In this document: positions 3,665 to 31,095 of the stretch, in pieces | Position numbering within the stretch: position 1 is the stretch's first letter | Layout of the letters: the number at the start of each line of letters is the position of its first letter | DNA from: a virus | IMG/VR virus record: IMGVR_UViG_3300042542_004360 | Coordinates: 1 to 42,067 of that record | Reading direction: 5' to 3' (one strand) | DNA length: 42,067 nt | Notes under the pieces: model-generated | Told to the model about the DNA's origin: nothing | The model's database searches: none | Seen by the model: the letters and a program-made list of their open reading frames with translations, nothing else | Translations under genes and position numbers: made by a program

Positions 3665-4576
3665 ATGTTCTACGCCGAGAATGAGGAAGAGAGTGCAACG
3701 CAGGACGACGCGTCCGACGAGGTCATCACCGACAACGGTGACGACGGAGTAGCCGCTGCGTCCGAGTCCGCGCCTGCCGAGGACGCGCCGTCCGTCTTCG
3801 ACTGGAACGGTGAGCTTGATTCGCTGACGAAGTCTGACTGGTTCAGCAAGATCGGCGATGACGGCCTCCGTAACTCCCTCGTTCGCGGCTTCGAGTCGAA
3901 GTACCGCAACTTCGAGCGCGGCTTCACCAAGGCGTTCCAGGAGACTGCGTATCGGCGCAAGGAGCTGGAGCGTCGCGAGGCCGCGATTCGCGAGAACGAA
4001 GCGCGTGCGCTGCGCTGGCTATCGGGTGACGGCGACCCGATGGCCGAGAAGCAGGCGGAGATCGACCGCCTGAAGGCAGCGCACGACGCTGCGCTCGACA
4101 CCCTGCGGCACGAGTACGCGCAGTCGGTCCAGAAGTCGCAGGACGAGTGGACGGGCAAGTACGGTCAGGCCGAGCGCGAGCGCGACGAGCTGAAGTCTCG
4201 CCTCGACCAGTTCGAGTACGAGGCCCGCGCGGCGGAAGAGCGCCAGGTCGAGGAGGCCGTCGACGAGGTGGAGTCGTGGCTGAAGGAAGAGGCGTCTGAC
4301 GTCTACGAGAACGACGACGCCTTCTACGCCTTCTGCGTGCTCGTCACAGGCGGTCTGGACCCCGAAGACGCGGTCACCATGACCCGCGCCAAGTTCGGTC
4401 CTCCGCCCGCTCCGGAGGCCGCACCGGTGCCCGAGGCCATGCAGATGATGAACCTCGGCCCGAGCCGCAGCGCGAGCACGGTGCAGACGCAGGCGGGCAC
4501 GTACAAGGAGATCATGGACCAGATGCGGCGAGCGGCGCAGGCGGATGAATCCGCTTTCTACCTGCCGAAGCGTTGA
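3665..4576 (+). CDS. Scaffold-like capsid assembly protein
   Basis: 303 residues. Strongly acidic N-terminus (about residues 1-45), a long charged coiled coil (about 85-200: YRRKELERREAAIRENEA ... AERERDELKSRLDQFEYEA), then the short domain DVYENDDAFYAFCVLVTGGLDPEDAV and a Pro/Ala linker. This build is typical of phage scaffolding proteins, which organise capsid protein around the portal and are then lost. SD CCAGGAG precedes the ATG. A capsid gene would be expected next, but none follows; instead there is a promoter overlapping the stop codon and the gene order turns to the minus strand. Confidence 0.65.
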   Translation: MFYAENEEESATQDDASDEVITDNGDDGVAAASESAPAEDAPSVFDWNGELDSLTKSDWFSKIGDDGLRNSLVRGFESKYRNFERGFTKAFQETAYRRKELERREAAIRENEARALRWLSGDGDPMAEKQAEIDRLKAAHDAALDTLRHEYAQSVQKSQDEWTGKYGQAERERDELKSRLDQFEYEARAAEERQVEEAVDEVESWLKEEASDVYENDDAFYAFCVLVTGGLDPEDAVTMTRAKFGPPPAPEAAPVPEAMQMMNLGPSRSASTVQTQAGTYKEIMDQMRRAAQADESAFYLPKR

Positions 4577-4601
4577 CAAAGCACTCGGTCTGAGCTACAC
4601 T
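4573..4601 (+). promoter_or_regulatory. Sigma70-like promoter overlapping the scaffold stop codon
   Basis: TTGACA (4573-4578), 17-nt spacer, TACACT (4596-4601): perfect -35, good -10, ideal spacing. The TGA in the -35 is the stop codon of the scaffold-like gene. Expected start near 4607-4608. No plus-strand gene lies downstream, only two hairpins. Confidence 0.7.
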
Positions 4602-4606
4602 AACGG

Positions 4607-4683
4607 CACGGGCGAAAGCTCGTGTCGTTCTCTTGTGTCAACTGGAAGGCCGCCGGCGGGTGGGCAACTGCCCGCCGGTTCTT
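4607..4683 (+). ncRNA. Candidate small RNA of about 75 nt
   Basis: The predicted transcript begins at a 7-bp hairpin, CACGGGC-GAAA-GCTCGTG (4607-4624, one G-U pair), closed by a GNRA-type GAAA tetraloop. About 28 nt of unpaired linker follow, then a GC stem with a T-rich end. The layout strong promoter, 5' hairpin, linker, terminator is that of a small-RNA gene. No reading frame with a ribosome binding site is visible inside. Function is unknown; it could be a regulator, a structural or packaging RNA, or a short leader transcript. The structure was read by eye. Confidence 0.5.
4653..4683 (+). terminator. Terminator-like hairpin
   Basis: CCGGCGGG (4653-4660) pairs with CCCGCCGG (4671-4678), 8 bp with a 10-nt loop, followed by TTCTT. 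It ends the candidate small RNA and sits between convergent genes. The minus-strand side has no T run. Confidence 0.6.
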
Positions 4684-4886
4684 CAGAAGGGCGGGAACCG
4701 CGTGCGCGCGGTGACCCACTTGTTGATGCCGGGCGCGATGCGGTCCTCGGGGAACGCCAGATCACGCCTCCAGAACGAGGCCAAGCGCCAAGCAACAGGC
4801 TGGCCCTCGGCGACTACCTGGCCGGCGCCGGGGCCGCTGTCGAGCCAGTCCAGAATCTCTTCGGTGTCGTCGTCGACCGGGCTCAA
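4683..4886 (-). CDS. Hypothetical 67-aa protein
   Basis: Unrecognised. Start TTG at 4886 overlaps the stop of the upstream 59-aa gene by 4 nt (TTGA), the same coupling pattern as elsewhere in the genome, which favours this rare start. The N-terminus is acidic (SPVDDDTEEILDWLDSG) and the C-terminus is basic and aromatic (WRLASFWRRD ... RTRFPPF). It is last in a four-gene minus-strand run with the transglycosylase-like gene. Function unknown; a small virion or assembly protein is possible from context only. Confidence 0.5.
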   Translation of the reverse strand: MSPVDDDTEEILDWLDSGPGAGQVVAEGQPVAWRLASFWRRDLAFPEDRIAPGINKWVTARTRFPPF

Positions 4887-5832: not shown

Positions 5833-6261
5833 TCAGTACTTCATGGGCTTGGGCTTGAGGAAGGCGGGCGGCCCCTTCTTCGGAGCGGAGGCCATCGCCT
5901 TGGCGGGCGTCGGCTCCTCGCCGGTGTCCTCTTCTTCCTCGCCCTCGGCCTCGCCGCCGACGATGGACCGCAGCGTCTTGGCCTGCTCGGCATGCACGCC
6001 GACCGACTTCTCAAGCTGGCTCGCGATCTCGCGGAGCTTGGAGGCGGCCTGGCGGAAGTCCATCTTCGACATGTCCGGTACGAGGCTGGCCTTCTCCTCG
6101 GAGGGCTCGTCCTCGGTGTCCTCTTCCTCTTCCTCGGAGGACATCTCGAACATCATCGGGCCCATCGCCATGCCAGAATGCTCGGCCATCGGGTCGAAGA
6201 AACCTCCGGGTCCGGCTGCCTTCTTCTTGGCGATCACGAGAATGGAAGCGGGACCGGGCAT
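5833..6261 (-). CDS. Hypothetical acidic coiled-coil protein
   Basis: 142 residues, unrecognised. The start at ATG 6261 (MPGPASILVIAKKK) has GAGGT upstream; longer in-frame starts lack one. Two very acidic blocks (SSEEEEEDTEDEPSEEK and GEEEEDTGEE) flank a helical segment (FRQAASKLREIASQLEKSVG), and the end is Pro/Lys-rich (PPAFLKPKPMKY). Only 1 nt separates its stop from the start of the transglycosylase-like gene, so the two are co-translated. Acidic, disordered proteins of this sort are often virion assembly partners; that is inference. Confidence 0.6.
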   Translation of the reverse strand: MPGPASILVIAKKKAAGPGGFFDPMAEHSGMAMGPMMFEMSSEEEEEDTEDEPSEEKASLVPDMSKMDFRQAASKLREIASQLEKSVGVHAEQAKTLRSIVGGEAEGEEEEDTGEEPTPAKAMASAPKKGPPAFLKPKPMKY

Positions 6262-6289
6262 AGACAGACCTCGATTTCTGGCGTATGAT
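6261..6289 (+). promoter_or_regulatory. Promoter for the 6346 gene
   Basis: TAGACA (6261-6266), 17-nt spacer, TATGAT (6284-6289): each box has one mismatch to consensus. It lies in the 84-nt divergent gap and directs transcription into the gene starting at 6346, which also has GGAGGT before its ATG. Confidence 0.55.
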
Positions 6290-6345: not shown

Positions 6346-6849
6346 ATGGCTGCGTACGGATACATCGTTCGGAAGTTCATTCGGTACGGGGAGGTCATCC
6401 CCGAGCACTTCACCAGCCAGTCGGTCCAGGCGCTGGTGGTCGGCACGAACTCGACGCTCGACACCGCGAACGCTTCGGCGGACGTGCGTGTTGTGCTGAG
6501 CATCCCCGACAACGCGGGCGTGGCCTCGACGGTTCACACGATCACGCTGCCCTACAAGGTGCGCGTGCTGCCGGGCACCCAGATCGTGCCGACCGCCACC
6601 ACGGTTGGGAACGTCACGGTCACCATCGGCAAGTCGGCCCCCATCGCAGGCGGCACGGCCATCCAGGCGACGGCCGCTGCGGTGAACACGCAGAACACGC
6701 CGCGCCTGCCGACGAACCACGTCGTGACGGCGGAGACGATCAACCCGCTTGCCGCGGACGCCGAGAGCCTGACCATCACGGTGCTCAAGGCCACGGCGGC
6801 CAACATCGCGCCGTTCCAGGTCTACCTCCAGCTCGTGAAGGCTGACTGA
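6346..6849 (+). CDS. Probable virion protein, beta-rich (167 aa)
   Basis: Unrecognised family. After a short start (MAAYGYIVRKFIRYGEV) the protein is almost entirely predicted beta strand, rich in Thr, Val and Ala (e.g. VTVTIGKSAPIAGGTAI). That build is common in capsid decoration, head-stabilisation or tail-tube proteins. It is monocistronic: its own promoter at 6261-6289, a strong SD and a strong terminator right after the stop, which suggests high, independent expression as for abundant virion proteins. It is too short to be a usual HK97-fold major capsid protein. Confidence 0.65.
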   Translation: MAAYGYIVRKFIRYGEVIPEHFTSQSVQALVVGTNSTLDTANASADVRVVLSIPDNAGVASTVHTITLPYKVRVLPGTQIVPTATTVGNVTVTIGKSAPIAGGTAIQATAAAVNTQNTPRLPTNHVVTAETINPLAADAESLTITVLKATAANIAPFQVYLQLVKAD

Positions 6850-7948: not shown

Positions 7949-9108
7949 GGGGCCTCCGGGTTGGCGTATAACACCGGGGCGGTAAGCGAGCCAGCGGGCA
8001 CAGCATCTCCCGCTATGGTATGGTGGTTGTGAAAATATCTCGCGCGTTTTTCTGGCTTCTGGCCCGGGTCCCCTTTCTCGTTTCCGCGTGGGCACCCATG
8101 ATCGCGCGCAGCCGTACTGGGAAGCCCGTGGAGCCACGAACGCGGCTCAAGGCTACCCAGATATACCCCCGCGCGTGACCGCGCTCATATCGCTTCCCAG
8201 AGGGGTTTCTGCGGTTACCGGAGCGGTATGGTAGTTGGCGAAGTTGCTCGGCAGGGGAGACGCGCTTTCCCATGGGGTCCCCATGTGTGTGTCGGCGGCT
8301 ATGTACCCCCCACGGCGCCCGGCCCCCGGCCCCGGCCCCCCGGCGCCCGCGGCGCCCACCCCCCGCGTCCGGGCGAGCCGGGGGGGAGGGACCACCACCC
8401 CCGCGCGCGGCGGGCGGAGCGGACCGACCGGCCGGGGGTCCGCGGCATCGGCGCCGAGGCGGACCGGCTACCGTCGGCGCAGCTCGGCCGCTCGGGGTGC
8501 TCGCGGGGCTCGTTCGCTACCTGGTAGCGCTACCTGGTGCGCGCGTATATTCGTGCGCTTTTGTTTGTTCGCGCGCGATAGTCGGCGCGATACCTACGCT
8601 ATTCAACGACGCGGCATGCAGGTTTTGGCGCCAGATTTCACCCTATGGTGAAAAGTAAAATCGGGCCCTGTTACGCGAAAACCCAGTTTAAACGCCGACT
8701 ATTCGGCAGTCCCTGAAAACTGTCGCACATCCTCAATGCGCCGCTATCGTGGAAAATCAACGACATAGACGATCATAAACTTTTGTAACCACAATTTTAT
8801 CCTATATACGTCTAAATACTTCAGTCCTATTCAAATCATACATATATAGACCCTCCTATATAAGGGTGATTTTTTGTAACGGCGCGACGGCGCACTATGC
8901 CGCGCAACATCACGGAATCATTGGCCGTTATCGTCACAAAGCCGATAGCACGTTACCGCGGGGTGTATAGCGTATCCCCGACCGCGCCCGAGCTGCGCGA
9001 CGACGGCCCGACGGCGCCCCCACAGATTCTCGCGACAACGTTACGCGCTTCCTTCCTACGCTTTCGCCAGGTCACGAAAGAATCTCGCGAGAAAGTTACC
9101 GTAGCGGG
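7949..9108. other. Non-coding region with extreme base-composition shift
   Basis: No open frame here has a convincing start signal or protein-like composition. 8281-8460 is about 85-90% G+C by my count of the sequence lines (for example 54 of 60 bases at 8341-8400), with C-runs and G-runs able to fold on themselves. 8761-8880 is only about 30% G+C (18 and 19 of 60), with runs such as CATATATAGA. Between them lies mixed sequence including GCCGA-CTAT-TCGGC (8694-8707). Such a DNA-unwinding-like AT island next to structured GC DNA could hold a replication origin or early regulatory region; this is inference. Confidence 0.5.
8850..8875 (+). terminator. Possible weak terminator in AT-rich island
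   Basis: ACCCT (8850-8854) and AGGGT (8863-8867) form a 5-bp stem with an AT-rich loop, closely followed by six T (8870-8875). It would insulate the cluster starting at 9188 from upstream transcription. The short stem makes this uncertain. Confidence 0.3.
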
Positions 9109-26982: not shown

Positions 26983-27701
26983 CAAAGATTCAGCCACAGC
27001 GCCTCGCGGCTAACTTTGCCGCCGGACCGTCCTTCGTTCCCCTTGATGTCAACGAAAGGGATGAACGGAAGCCACGTCGCGCCGACATTCTCGCAGACCA
27101 TCACCTGGCCGCGACGCGCGCGGCACCATTCTGCGAGCGCGGTGAAGTCGTCGGGCTGCGTCGGGTAGTGCTTCCCGGCGCCGATGTAAGGTGGGTCGAT
27201 GAACCACGTCGCCTCAACGTCGGGCGCATCCGTGTAGTCGCCCTCGATGAGCTTCCAGTGACGGACGCGGTCTACCTGCGACGCGATGCGCTCGCGGATC
27301 TCAGGCCCCCACCAACTACTCGGAGGATCGCGCGGCTCAAGTCCGGCGACGGCTCGTCGCATATTCTGGCTTGCGCGCACGCGTGGGGCTGCCGTTCCTT
27401 TGTTAATCCACCACCCGACGAGAAGGCGTGCCTCCTCTACGATAGCAAGATCATCTACCGACTGGTCGAGTCTGAGGTCGGGCAGCGCCCGCACTTCTGC
27501 CGCCGACACGCGTAGCAGGTAGCGCCACGTCGCAGCGACTTTCGGGTTCTTCTCCACGAGTACGACGTTCCGGTCAGGGTAGCGAAGCGAGTAGCCTGCC
27601 GCGCCCGCGAACGGTTCAATGATCGTGCCGAACAAGGGCTTAGGATAGAGCGGCGCGGCCCGCCACTTGCCGCCGTAGTACGCCCAGAACGGCTTGAGCA
27701 T
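26979..27701 (-). CDS. DNA adenine methylase, Dam/D12 class
   Basis: About 240 residues. FWAYYGGKWRAAPLYPKPLF ends in the usual entry to IIEPFAGAAGYS (SAM-binding motif I, residues ~28-40), and WFIDPPYIGAGKHYP holds the catalytic DPPY near residue 168. This is the order of class alpha D12 N6-adenine methylases (GATC-like targets, though the site is not predictable). ATG 27701 gives a TGATG junction with the polymerase; GTG 27704 is the alternative. The end KGNEGRSGGKVSREALWLN is also typical. Probably protects phage DNA from restriction. Confidence 0.8.
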   Translation of the reverse strand: MLKPFWAYYGGKWRAAPLYPKPLFGTIIEPFAGAAGYSLRYPDRNVVLVEKNPKVAATWRYLLRVSAAEVRALPDLRLDQSVDDLAIVEEARLLVGWWINKGTAAPRVRASQNMRRAVAGLEPRDPPSSWWGPEIRERIASQVDRVRHWKLIEGDYTDAPDVEATWFIDPPYIGAGKHYPTQPDDFTALAEWCRARRGQVMVCENVGATWLPFIPFVDIKGNEGRSGGKVSREALWLNLC

Positions 27702-30532
27702 CACGCCTCCTTGAGATTTCTACCGACGCTCGCCTCAGCGGTCAGCGGCACGTCCCACCCAGGGATGCGGACGGTCATGCACTCCTCGACCTCGCGGCGG
27801 TACGCTTCCAGCTCGGGCGGCAGCGCCTCGCCCTTCTTGGGCTTCCAGTCGGCCAGCCCAGGCGGCGCCTCGATCTCCACGGCGATGGAGTCGTGGCACT
27901 GGTGGATGAGGCCCGTCCGCTTGTGGAAGTCCCACGGGAACCGTTGCAGCAGCGCCTGCTCCGCGAGGCGCATGCAGCTTGCTTCAGCAGCGAGGATGGG
28001 GAAGTTCACGACCTCCTGCTTCTTGCCTTCCGTGAGGCCGCCGGAGCGCCGTCCCATGACCGGCTCTTCCATGTAGTTCTGGTGCCGGTAGATGGACTGC
28101 ATCGCGTCCCACGCCGACAGCCACTCCGGCTCCGTCTTCAGCCACGTCTCGTGGAAGTGGCGCACTTCCTTCGTCGTCATGCCGAGGTACGGCAGCTCGC
28201 CGCTGTCGGACTCCGTTGACGTGAGCACCTGCCAGATGGTCGTCGGGTCGGCGGCATACGCAGCCGCGTACCGGAACGTCTTCGAGATGTCTCGCATGGC
28301 CTTCGCCATGCCACTACCGGGCTTGCGCTGGATGCTGAACCCGTCCGGGCCCCACCCATCTGCTGCCTTGAACTTATCACCAAACAGCGCCAGCGCCAAG
28401 GCGTTGTGCGGATCTTTTCCTTCGACAAAGCCCTCGATCAACGTCGGGATCTTCCAGTAGTTCGCGATGATTCGGAGGTGCGCCTGGTCGAGGTCAGCCC
28501 CCACGAGGAGATGCCCACGCTCCGCTGCGAACAGGGTCTTGAGCTTGCCCTGCCCCTTGCGGCTGCCGATGTTCTGAAGGTTCGGCCCCGACGAGGACAG
28601 CCGCCCCGGTGCCGTGACGTGGGCGTTCCACGTCGAGCGGACGCGCCCGTCCGAGTGCCAGATGACGCCCTTCTGCGGGTCCATCGACGTGAGGTTCAGC
28701 GGCAGGAGCACGGTGCCGAGGATCTTGTTCTTCTCGCGCCGGTACAGGCGCAGTTCGCGGATGAACGCCTCCTGCTCCTGCGAGAGGCGGCCGCCCGCCA
28801 GATGGCCGCGGAGCACCTTGTCGCCGGTGCCGGGCATCCCCGACGCCGTGTAGAAGTCGCGCGCCTCCATGCTCGGCGGGATGCCGAGCTTCCACGTCTC
28901 GTAGAGCAGGTCGCGGATCTGGTCAGCGCTGCCTGGCTTGATGCCGATGGTGTCGTCCGCCTCGTCGTTCGCTCCCGCGCTCTTGAGGTCCAGCCGCGCG
29001 AGGCCCACGGCGTGGGCGAGTTCGGACAGCCGCTTCTCGCGCTTTGCCACCGACGCGCGCGTCTCTATCTCCATCTTGAACCGCGCTTCCTGGTCGACGT
29101 ACACGCCGATCTTGTGCAGGTTGACGCACATGTCCTGCGTCGCGTGGTCCAGCTCATGCAGGTCCCAGCGCCGGTGCTCCCAGCCCTTCGGCCGCAGCGC
29201 CTCGGGGAGGTCACGGAAGGCGCCTGCCTCCTCGGCTGCGTCGAACAGCGGCACCACGATGCGCGCGTTCACGGCGCTGTCGGTGCAGTTGTAGGCGAGG
29301 CGGTCCCAGTCGTCGACCTTGCCGTGCGCGAGGCTCTCGCCCTTCTCCGTCGTCTCCCAGCGGTCCACGTCGGTGAGCACCGAGCCGACGACCTTGAGGC
29401 CCTTCGGAAGTTCAGGCGCCCGGAAGCGGGCCGCGAACAGCGTGTCGATGATCGGTGCGGGTGTGATACCCAGCCAATGCTCTGTTACCACCCTGTCATA
29501 GGATCCACAATTGTGCCCCACCTTGGTCTTCGTCGGGTCGCCGAGGAAGCGTCGGAGGATGTCGAGAACTCGCGCCTCGTCCTCGGCCGAGTAGTAGCGC
29601 GTGGAGCCGTCTCCGCTCAGCAGGTTGAGCCCCAAGACCTTGCAGCGCGTGGCCTCCTCCTGCCCTTGGCGTAGCGCGCGGCCCTCCGCGTTGAGGTCGG
29701 GATGCGCGATGGCGATGGACCGCACTTGACAGGTCAACGGCTCGATGCCGTCCGTCTCCAAGTCGTAGGCCCAGAACGGCATGTCCTGCGCGAGGAACGC
29801 TTCCAGCTCATCGGGCGTCGGGTTGAAGACGCGCTCCGGCTCTGTCCATCGAAGCTGCCCGGTGAACCAGCGCAGCGCCTTGGACAGGTCCGCGTGGAAG
29901 GTGGCGCGCCAGCCTGGAGCCTTCTGCACGAAGCCCGGGTGGAACATCGGAAAGACCTTCCGCACCGCGCCCTCGGGCGTGACGTTCGCGAGCGGCGTCT
30001 CCATGAGCGCGCCCCAATGCTCGTCCACCCAGACAGGTCCACCGCGCAGCGAGAAGATGCTCTGCGCCTTGCTCGTCAGCGCGTTGGCCGACGTGCGCCC
30101 CAGCGCGATGATGTTGTTGTAACTTTCCGCCTCCTTGAGTAGCCTCGGGCGGCAACAAGCGATAGGGTCCGGGAGGGCCGGGAGTCCTTGCACAAGGAGG
30201 CGACGGTTCTCCTTGTCGAGCGCCTTGGTCATCTTCTCCCACGCGTTCGGCTGCGTGCCCGCGTTGCAGGCGACGACATGCGTGAGGTCGATGTCACCAC
30301 GCTTGCGCCCGATGGCGAGCATGGCCAGGTTCCACTCCTGCCCGCTGCGGCCCGAGAGCGGGCGTCCGTTGTTGGAGTCCTCGATGTGCGGCGTCTCCGC
30401 CACCGCGAGCACCGTGGCGTCCTTGTGGATCTCAGGCGGGCACGGCTGCCAGTAGCCGTCGCGAAACTTCCCCTTGGGGCCCAACGGGCACACATCGCAG
30501 CGCGCCCCGTGCTGCCGCGGGTCATACGGCAT
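27701..30532 (-). CDS. UDG-like domain fused to DNA polymerase I (family A)
   Basis: 943 residues. N-terminus (1-225) resembles family-4 uracil-DNA glycosylases: CDVCPLG cysteines, AVAETPHIEDSNNGRPLSGR, ACCRPRL and MFHPGFVQKA. Then a 3'-5' exonuclease (YDLETDG near 255, GHNCGSYDRV, YNCTDS) and a polymerase domain (GRLSSSGPNLQNIG near 639, motif A ADLDQAHLR near 677, motif B RDISKTFRYAAAYA near 745, motif C CHDS near 877). Position 762 (E. coli numbering) is Tyr. Two usual acidic residues differ: Glu710 is His and Glu883 is Ser. SPO1-type phages are known to carry a similar UDG-polymerase fusion. Confidence 0.85.
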   Translation of the reverse strand: MPYDPRQHGARCDVCPLGPKGKFRDGYWQPCPPEIHKDATVLAVAETPHIEDSNNGRPLSGRSGQEWNLAMLAIGRKRGDIDLTHVVACNAGTQPNAWEKMTKALDKENRRLLVQGLPALPDPIACCRPRLLKEAESYNNIIALGRTSANALTSKAQSIFSLRGGPVWVDEHWGALMETPLANVTPEGAVRKVFPMFHPGFVQKAPGWRATFHADLSKALRWFTGQLRWTEPERVFNPTPDELEAFLAQDMPFWAYDLETDGIEPLTCQVRSIAIAHPDLNAEGRALRQGQEEATRCKVLGLNLLSGDGSTRYYSAEDEARVLDILRRFLGDPTKTKVGHNCGSYDRVVTEHWLGITPAPIIDTLFAARFRAPELPKGLKVVGSVLTDVDRWETTEKGESLAHGKVDDWDRLAYNCTDSAVNARIVVPLFDAAEEAGAFRDLPEALRPKGWEHRRWDLHELDHATQDMCVNLHKIGVYVDQEARFKMEIETRASVAKREKRLSELAHAVGLARLDLKSAGANDEADDTIGIKPGSADQIRDLLYETWKLGIPPSMEARDFYTASGMPGTGDKVLRGHLAGGRLSQEQEAFIRELRLYRREKNKILGTVLLPLNLTSMDPQKGVIWHSDGRVRSTWNAHVTAPGRLSSSGPNLQNIGSRKGQGKLKTLFAAERGHLLVGADLDQAHLRIIANYWKIPTLIEGFVEGKDPHNALALALFGDKFKAADGWGPDGFSIQRKPGSGMAKAMRDISKTFRYAAAYAADPTTIWQVLTSTESDSGELPYLGMTTKEVRHFHETWLKTEPEWLSAWDAMQSIYRHQNYMEEPVMGRRSGGLTEGKKQEVVNFPILAAEASCMRLAEQALLQRFPWDFHKRTGLIHQCHDSIAVEIEAPPGLADWKPKKGEALPPELEAYRREVEECMTVRIPGWDVPLTAEASVGRNLKEA

Positions 30533-30656
30533 CGTCGTCCTCGTGGCGGTTGAGCCAGCGCTCGACCTCGTTCAGCGTGCGCCACAGGATGACGCAGCCC
30601 ACCACCGTGCAGGCAAGGGTGAACATCAGCACCAACAGTAGGATGAGATCAGCCAC
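30522..30656 (-). CDS. Membrane-anchored peptide (44 aa)
   Basis: MADLILLLVLMFTLACTVVG then CVILWRTLNEVERWLNRHED and DDAV. One clear membrane helix (residues 4-25) followed by an amphipathic, acidic tail. GTG 30656 overlaps the methylase stop by 8 nt and its end overlaps the polymerase start by 11 nt; GGAG lies 9 nt upstream. Function unknown. Confidence 0.5.
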   Translation of the reverse strand: MADLILLLVLMFTLACTVVGCVILWRTLNEVERWLNRHEDDDAV

Positions 30657-31095
30657 GGCCCACGACTCCGCGAGGAGGGTAGAACACCGCCACCGCAGAC
30701 GGGAACGGCGCGCTGTTGATGGCGCCCCCGAACCGCAGCCGCCCTCGGATGAACGTCACCTTGGCGAACGGCAGCACGTAGTCGTGCCACCACGCCGTGT
30801 CGGTGCGAGCTGGCAGCAGGCACACGACCGTCGCGCCGTTCAGGCTCTCCTCGTACGCCTTCTTGATCCAGCGGCTGATCTCGCGCCCGTACGGCGGGTT
30901 CATCCAGCAGACGTCCAGGCTCCAGTCTTGCGTGAGCCCGTTCGCGTGAACGTCGAAGTAGCGCTTGCACTTGGCGTTGTCGGCGTCAGCGCAGACATCG
31001 AGCGTGAAGTGGAAGAGCGCGTCCCACTCCGCGAAGAACTCAGGCGGCGTGGCCCACCGGTCTGTGGCCGAGGAGAACATGAGGTCGGTGTTCAT
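30649..31095 (-). CDS. Phage N6-adenine methyltransferase (DNA_N-6-adenine-MTase family)
   Basis: 148 residues, the family's usual length. It starts MNTDLMFSSATDRWATPPEF, continues FHFTLDVCADADNAKCKRYF and has the catalytic CWMNPPYGREISRWIKKA (NPPY), then VVCLLPARTDTAWWHDYVL and FIRGRLRFGG. These are the hallmark stretches of the small phage adenine methylases that modify the phage's own DNA. ATG 31095 has GGGGGAGC right before it. It is a second adenine methylase in addition to the one at 26979. Confidence 0.85.
   Translation of the reverse strand: MNTDLMFSSATDRWATPPEFFAEWDALFHFTLDVCADADNAKCKRYFDVHANGLTQDWSLDVCWMNPPYGREISRWIKKAYEESLNGATVVCLLPARTDTAWWHDYVLPFAKVTFIRGRLRFGGAINSAPFPSAVAVFYPPRGVVGRG

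Follow-up and report, generated by a model that had tools for sequence, protein, structure and literature searches.

Small non-coding RNAs have been described in several phages. The cluster A2 mycobacteriophages D29, L5 and StarStuff express intergenic and Pleft small non-coding RNAs that were seen by RNA-seq and whose function is unknown (PMC5712189), and OOP of lambda and sar of P22 are antisense phage RNAs (reviewed in PMC12197685). Here we analyze a locus in an IMG/VR virus record of 42,067 bases from an uncultivated phage (hereafter the window, meaning this whole stretch), together with its relatives, which are also IMG/VR contigs. The unit at this locus is probably a phage-encoded small non-coding RNA gene read by a sigma-70-type polymerase. 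The predicted product would resemble the mycobacteriophage RNAs as a short non-coding phage RNA from intergenic space, and OOP and sar as a short phage RNA with its own promoter (PMC12197685 and general knowledge). Comparison between relatives indicates that selection in the clade acts on the promoter, the terminator-type hairpin and the pairing of the stems; we infer that the RNA is transcribed, where exactly it begins and ends, how stable it is and how it acts.

The unit follows a scaffold-like gene (3665..4576, plus strand; 303 aa), an open reading frame with relatives in 66 viral loci and the last gene of a rightward operon. The term "scaffold" was a guess made in the sequence-only reading from position and from the acidic, coiled-coil-like sequence; family searches returned no family match for the protein. 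A promoter scan located a −35 box, TTGACA (4573..4578, plus strand), and a −10 box, TACACT (4596..4601, plus strand), which are separated by a 17-nt spacer, match at 10/12 positions over 4573-4601 and are both conserved in the clade. The −35 box shares the last Arg codon and the stop codon (CGT TGA) with the scaffold-like gene, and the promoter geometry predicts transcription start on the plus strand at 4606..4609, 5–8 nt past the −10 box. This promoter had been ranked among the best in the window; in the 42-kb scan it was the sole site that scored at least 10/12 with TTG and TA starts, and under a strict scan it was the record-wide top site in the window and in the records G008 and G003. Comparable sites occurred at 3 per 12 kb versus 1.2 expected, a mild excess for a single genome, so the case rests on comparison. 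The sequence-only reading was also correct that no plus-strand gene follows before 6346, because the conserved genes between 4576 and 6346 are on the minus strand. Separately, a good promoter (TAGACA-N17-TATGAT, 6261-6289) lies ahead of the plus-strand gene at 6346-6849, and a minus-strand promoter-like site at 6314-6285 faces it, so that the two form a compact pair of divergent promoters.

The 3′ flank of the scaffold-like gene was then read in the related viral loci. Promoters were scored as matches out of 12 at 45 start positions around the stop codon of the scaffold-like gene. All 15 sampled unit-carrying lineages of the clade had a TTGAC-like −35 box, a spacer of 16 or 17 nt and a −10 box starting with TA. 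Their mean score was 8.93/12, compared with 6.03 for intervals of the same length elsewhere in the same contigs, and the maximum mean among 100,000 random sets of 15 intervals was 7.13, although the 15 lineages are related and do not amount to 15 independent trials. The promoters of lineages L014 and L015 were weak (7/12). In the 18 relatives without the unit, the same interval scored 5-8 of 12, and more distant relatives had no promoter unit. The −35 box was spelled CGT-TGA-CA in seven lineages, in whose genes CGT accounts for 12% of Arg codons; elsewhere it lay 3′ of the stop codon or, in L006 and L007, just upstream as TTTACA. Judged by sequence, the unit thus has a promoter of its own, as an independent phage small-RNA gene would.

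Folding supported two hairpins downstream of the promoter, with the 84-nt stretch reaching −49.1 kcal/mol (z = −5.3; 0/200 shuffles as good), which upheld the structure proposed earlier. The 5′ hairpin (4602..4629, plus strand) has 12 bp and a GAAA loop, and L006 and L007 have a stem at the same place. The second, terminator-type hairpin (4652-4679; 12 bp, GCAA loop) is followed by the tail TCTTC, the whole element occupying 4652..4684 on the plus strand. Between the hairpins lies a 22-nt linker; the linker feature (4628..4651, plus strand), as drawn from a motif scan, includes an anti-SD-like TTCTC motif (4628-4632) that is half within the 5′ stem. Earlier these elements had been described as a 7-bp GAAA hairpin and an 8-bp GC terminator. 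Both hairpins and the GAAA loop were recovered, but each stem is 12 bp long, and the 7 and 8 bp are the inner parts. The 7-bp figure corresponds approximately to the remainder of the 5′ stem if transcription starts 6–7 nt after the −10 box. The outermost 4–6 pairs of the 5′ hairpin in the window precede the predicted start, and the 5′ part alone gave a z of −4.5 with the whole 12-bp stem but only −0.75 for an RNA beginning 7 nt past the −10 box. In four lineages (the window, L003, L006 and L016), outer pairs of this stem precede the expected start, so that the complete stem might be limited to read-through RNA or to DNA. For several lineages, folding of the 5′ part was no better than that of shuffles.

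A GC-rich hairpin of 10–13 bp was found at the same place in all 16 representatives, so that the unit has its own putative terminator, though the tails are U-poor. The loop was of the GNRA type in 14/16 and took four sequences (GAAA, GCAA, GCGA and GTGA). Many marine relatives have merely a plain terminator a few bases past the stop codon of the scaffold-like gene. Counted from the predicted start through the last base of the terminator stem, the unit measured 70–121 nt across representatives, with one subclade at 113–121 nt. The RNA body changes quickly in evolution, and its size and fold differ widely between close relatives.

Compensatory change, looked for in related phages as the sequence-only reading had advised, was seen in two subgroups rather than in every lineage. 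Comparison of the window with L006, made by eye on the printed pairs, showed a 5′ stem conserved across 12 positions, five of its pairs having changed on both sides. Seven lineages (L013, L014, L015, L017, L019, L020 and L027) share a 15-pair stem beginning near the predicted 5′ end of the RNA. In this L013-type group, the 15-pair and terminator stems together had 9 two-sided changes versus 2.9 in shuffles (0/500 as high), a test that is biased in favor of the structure because it was predicted on the same alignment. The signal vanished when the partner was slid by 1–3 columns. A covariance model of the L013 subgroup, with the promoter included, gave full-length syntenic matches in the window, L026 and L028 (E = 2e-5 to 3e-4); among the other lineages, only L024 and L008 were matched, and there just in the terminator part. 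Reading of the unit sequences revealed no open reading frame shared across lineages, and ATG frames were absent or stopped at differing lengths. A leaderless peptide translated from the ATG of some lineages was rejected since these frames differ between lineages.

In a tree of the scaffold-like protein, the clade containing the window (21 rows) had 99% SH-aLRT support. When presence or absence of the unit, labeled from our reading of the flanks, was placed on this tree, two changes were needed, which fits one gain and one loss (L022/L029). The sublineage that lost the unit retains the neighboring genes. No relative of the scaffold-like protein was found in bacterial or archaeal genome contigs, the phage collection held no cultured relative by either the window DNA or the scaffold-like protein, and additional relative queries yielded no new copy of the promoter-hairpin unit. 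The window RNA had no Rfam family at the gathering score. Relaxed matches, such as those to BjrC68 (20 bits, cut-off 39) and Actino-pnp, were discarded as far under the cut-off and inconsistent between relatives. No tRNA was found within the window.

Gene order around the unit is conserved among relatives. On the far side of the terminator is a convergent gene of 67 aa (4683..4886, minus strand), whose stop codon abuts the terminator tail and whose homologs in L004-L007 are 41–54% identical. Upstream of the site, the related 70-kb record G002 has a terminase (phrog_2) and a portal gene, and the window has a portal ortholog (623-2371) with matches to the portal families of SU10 and P22. The sequence-only reading had expected a capsid gene after the scaffold-like gene. 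This expectation was contradicted by G002, where the gene for the major head protein (phrog_9953, 29863-30912, minus strand) sits on the other strand, beyond the terminase; the equivalent place would fall outside the window. Since the capsid gene is elsewhere in G002, nothing need be missing after the scaffold-like gene.

Other features were noted in these genomes. A region of ~600 nt in the window (8270-8890) has no clear gene, is extremely GC-rich at 8290-8480 and AT-rich at 8690-8880, and contains terminator-like hairpins at 8536-8559 and 8850-8867, making it a candidate control or origin region. The window encodes a family A DNA polymerase (27701-30532, minus strand) in which an N-terminal uracil-DNA glycosylase superfamily domain is fused to exonuclease and polymerase domains. 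In G001 (L004; 59082-62840) and G006 (L019; 71170-75111), a single long open frame (1287 and 1355 codons, respectively) contains the DNA polymerase match as two pieces separated by ~0.9–1.1 kb, suggesting candidate inteins; the polymerase of the window has none.

In the mechanism that we propose, host RNA polymerase with the housekeeping sigma factor would start at ~4607 from the promoter that overlaps the stop codon of the scaffold-like gene, and transcription would stop at the GC-rich hairpin (4652-4679) to give an RNA of ~70–75 nt. In the predicted molecule, a short linker connects a stem on the 5′ side with another on the 3′ side, and an RNA of this shape should withstand decay from either end. 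It may act in trans, with the linker base-pairing to its targets, perhaps at the ribosome-binding sites of host or phage messages. Trans-acting base-pairing regulation is the commonest role for such small RNAs, and we tentatively regard a riboregulator of this kind as the most likely role here. The TTCTC seed-like motif was present in 6/16 representatives versus 1.0 expected, and is partly paired in the window. In L003 and L004, TTCTCCTG exactly complements CAGGAGAA, which lies at the scaffold-like gene's ribosome-binding site. When pairing was sought at phage gene starts, with orthologs over up to 11 records, no consistent gene emerged as a target. A regulatory role, which had been suggested earlier, is thus plausible, but phage gene starts supplied no target for it. 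More speculatively, and with considerable doubt, the RNA could be a clade-specific one that arose by a single gain between the scaffold-like gene and the terminator of that gene and controls translation of structural or host genes through its anti-SD seed, helping to adjust how much scaffold is made relative to other head proteins.

The main rival to a trans-acting RNA is an insulator between convergent operons, which we consider rather unlikely. The element would then act in cis, its hairpins ending the portal-scaffold message ahead of the convergent minus-strand genes, while the short transcript made from the promoter would act only locally, by interference with or antisense to the convergent transcript, and the RNA would have no target. 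Such an arrangement would suit the convergent genes that abut the terminator, the marine relatives that have a plain terminator only at the same place and the fast-evolving RNA body. It would also suit the 5′ stem that reaches back to the −10 box in four lineages, since its full form would arise only in read-through RNA. Termination does not depend on a promoter, however, and relatives insulate their operons without one; moreover, compensatory change has preserved the L013-type stem, which begins at the predicted 5′ end of the RNA itself.

Two further explanations fare much worse. That the unit is a functionless coincidence of a promoter-like match with GC-rich hairpins would accord with the mild excess in the single-genome promoter scan (3 versus 1.2), but is very improbable given that 15 lineages conserve the unit beyond background and outgroup controls and that two subgroups show covariation. 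The unit as a candidate small-RNA gene, as the sequence-only reading had called it, gains support from the same observations together with the hairpin in 16/16 representatives. Equally hard to sustain, and slightly less probable still, is an RNA that, like the phi29 pRNA, would help to assemble heads or package DNA. Its position after the terminase, portal and scaffold-like genes is all that favors this role, which had also been suggested and is left without support: no phage pRNA was matched in Rfam, the portal is of the SU10/P22 kind, RNA size and fold vary widely among close relatives, and one sublineage lost the unit yet keeps the neighboring genes.

Phage small RNAs are already known as a kind, and the present RNA is a newly predicted one. 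It differs from those of D29, L5 and StarStuff in that theirs were seen in RNA-seq, whereas this one is predicted by comparison only. OOP and sar overlap and silence a known phage gene in the lysis-lysogeny switch; antisense action of this type was rejected for the present unit, which ends where the convergent gene ends (4683) and whose only overlap with an opposite-strand gene is at that gene's very end. The phi29 pRNA is likewise a non-coding phage RNA near packaging genes, but differs in size and fold, and membership in its family was rejected because the relaxed Rfam matches, too, included no pRNA. Small RNAs with C-rich, anti-SD loops occur in Gram-positive bacteria. An unpaired UCUCC-like motif in some lineages resembles these loops, although more than half of the representatives have no such motif. 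Because annotation seeks mainly proteins, small RNAs are seldom predicted in environmental phages. Here, comparison of relatives points to an RNA gene that was gained once in an uncultivated phage lineage and then kept, and it gives defined loci to seek in metatranscriptomes. If the RNA regulates translation of head genes, it would add a new layer of control to capsid assembly.
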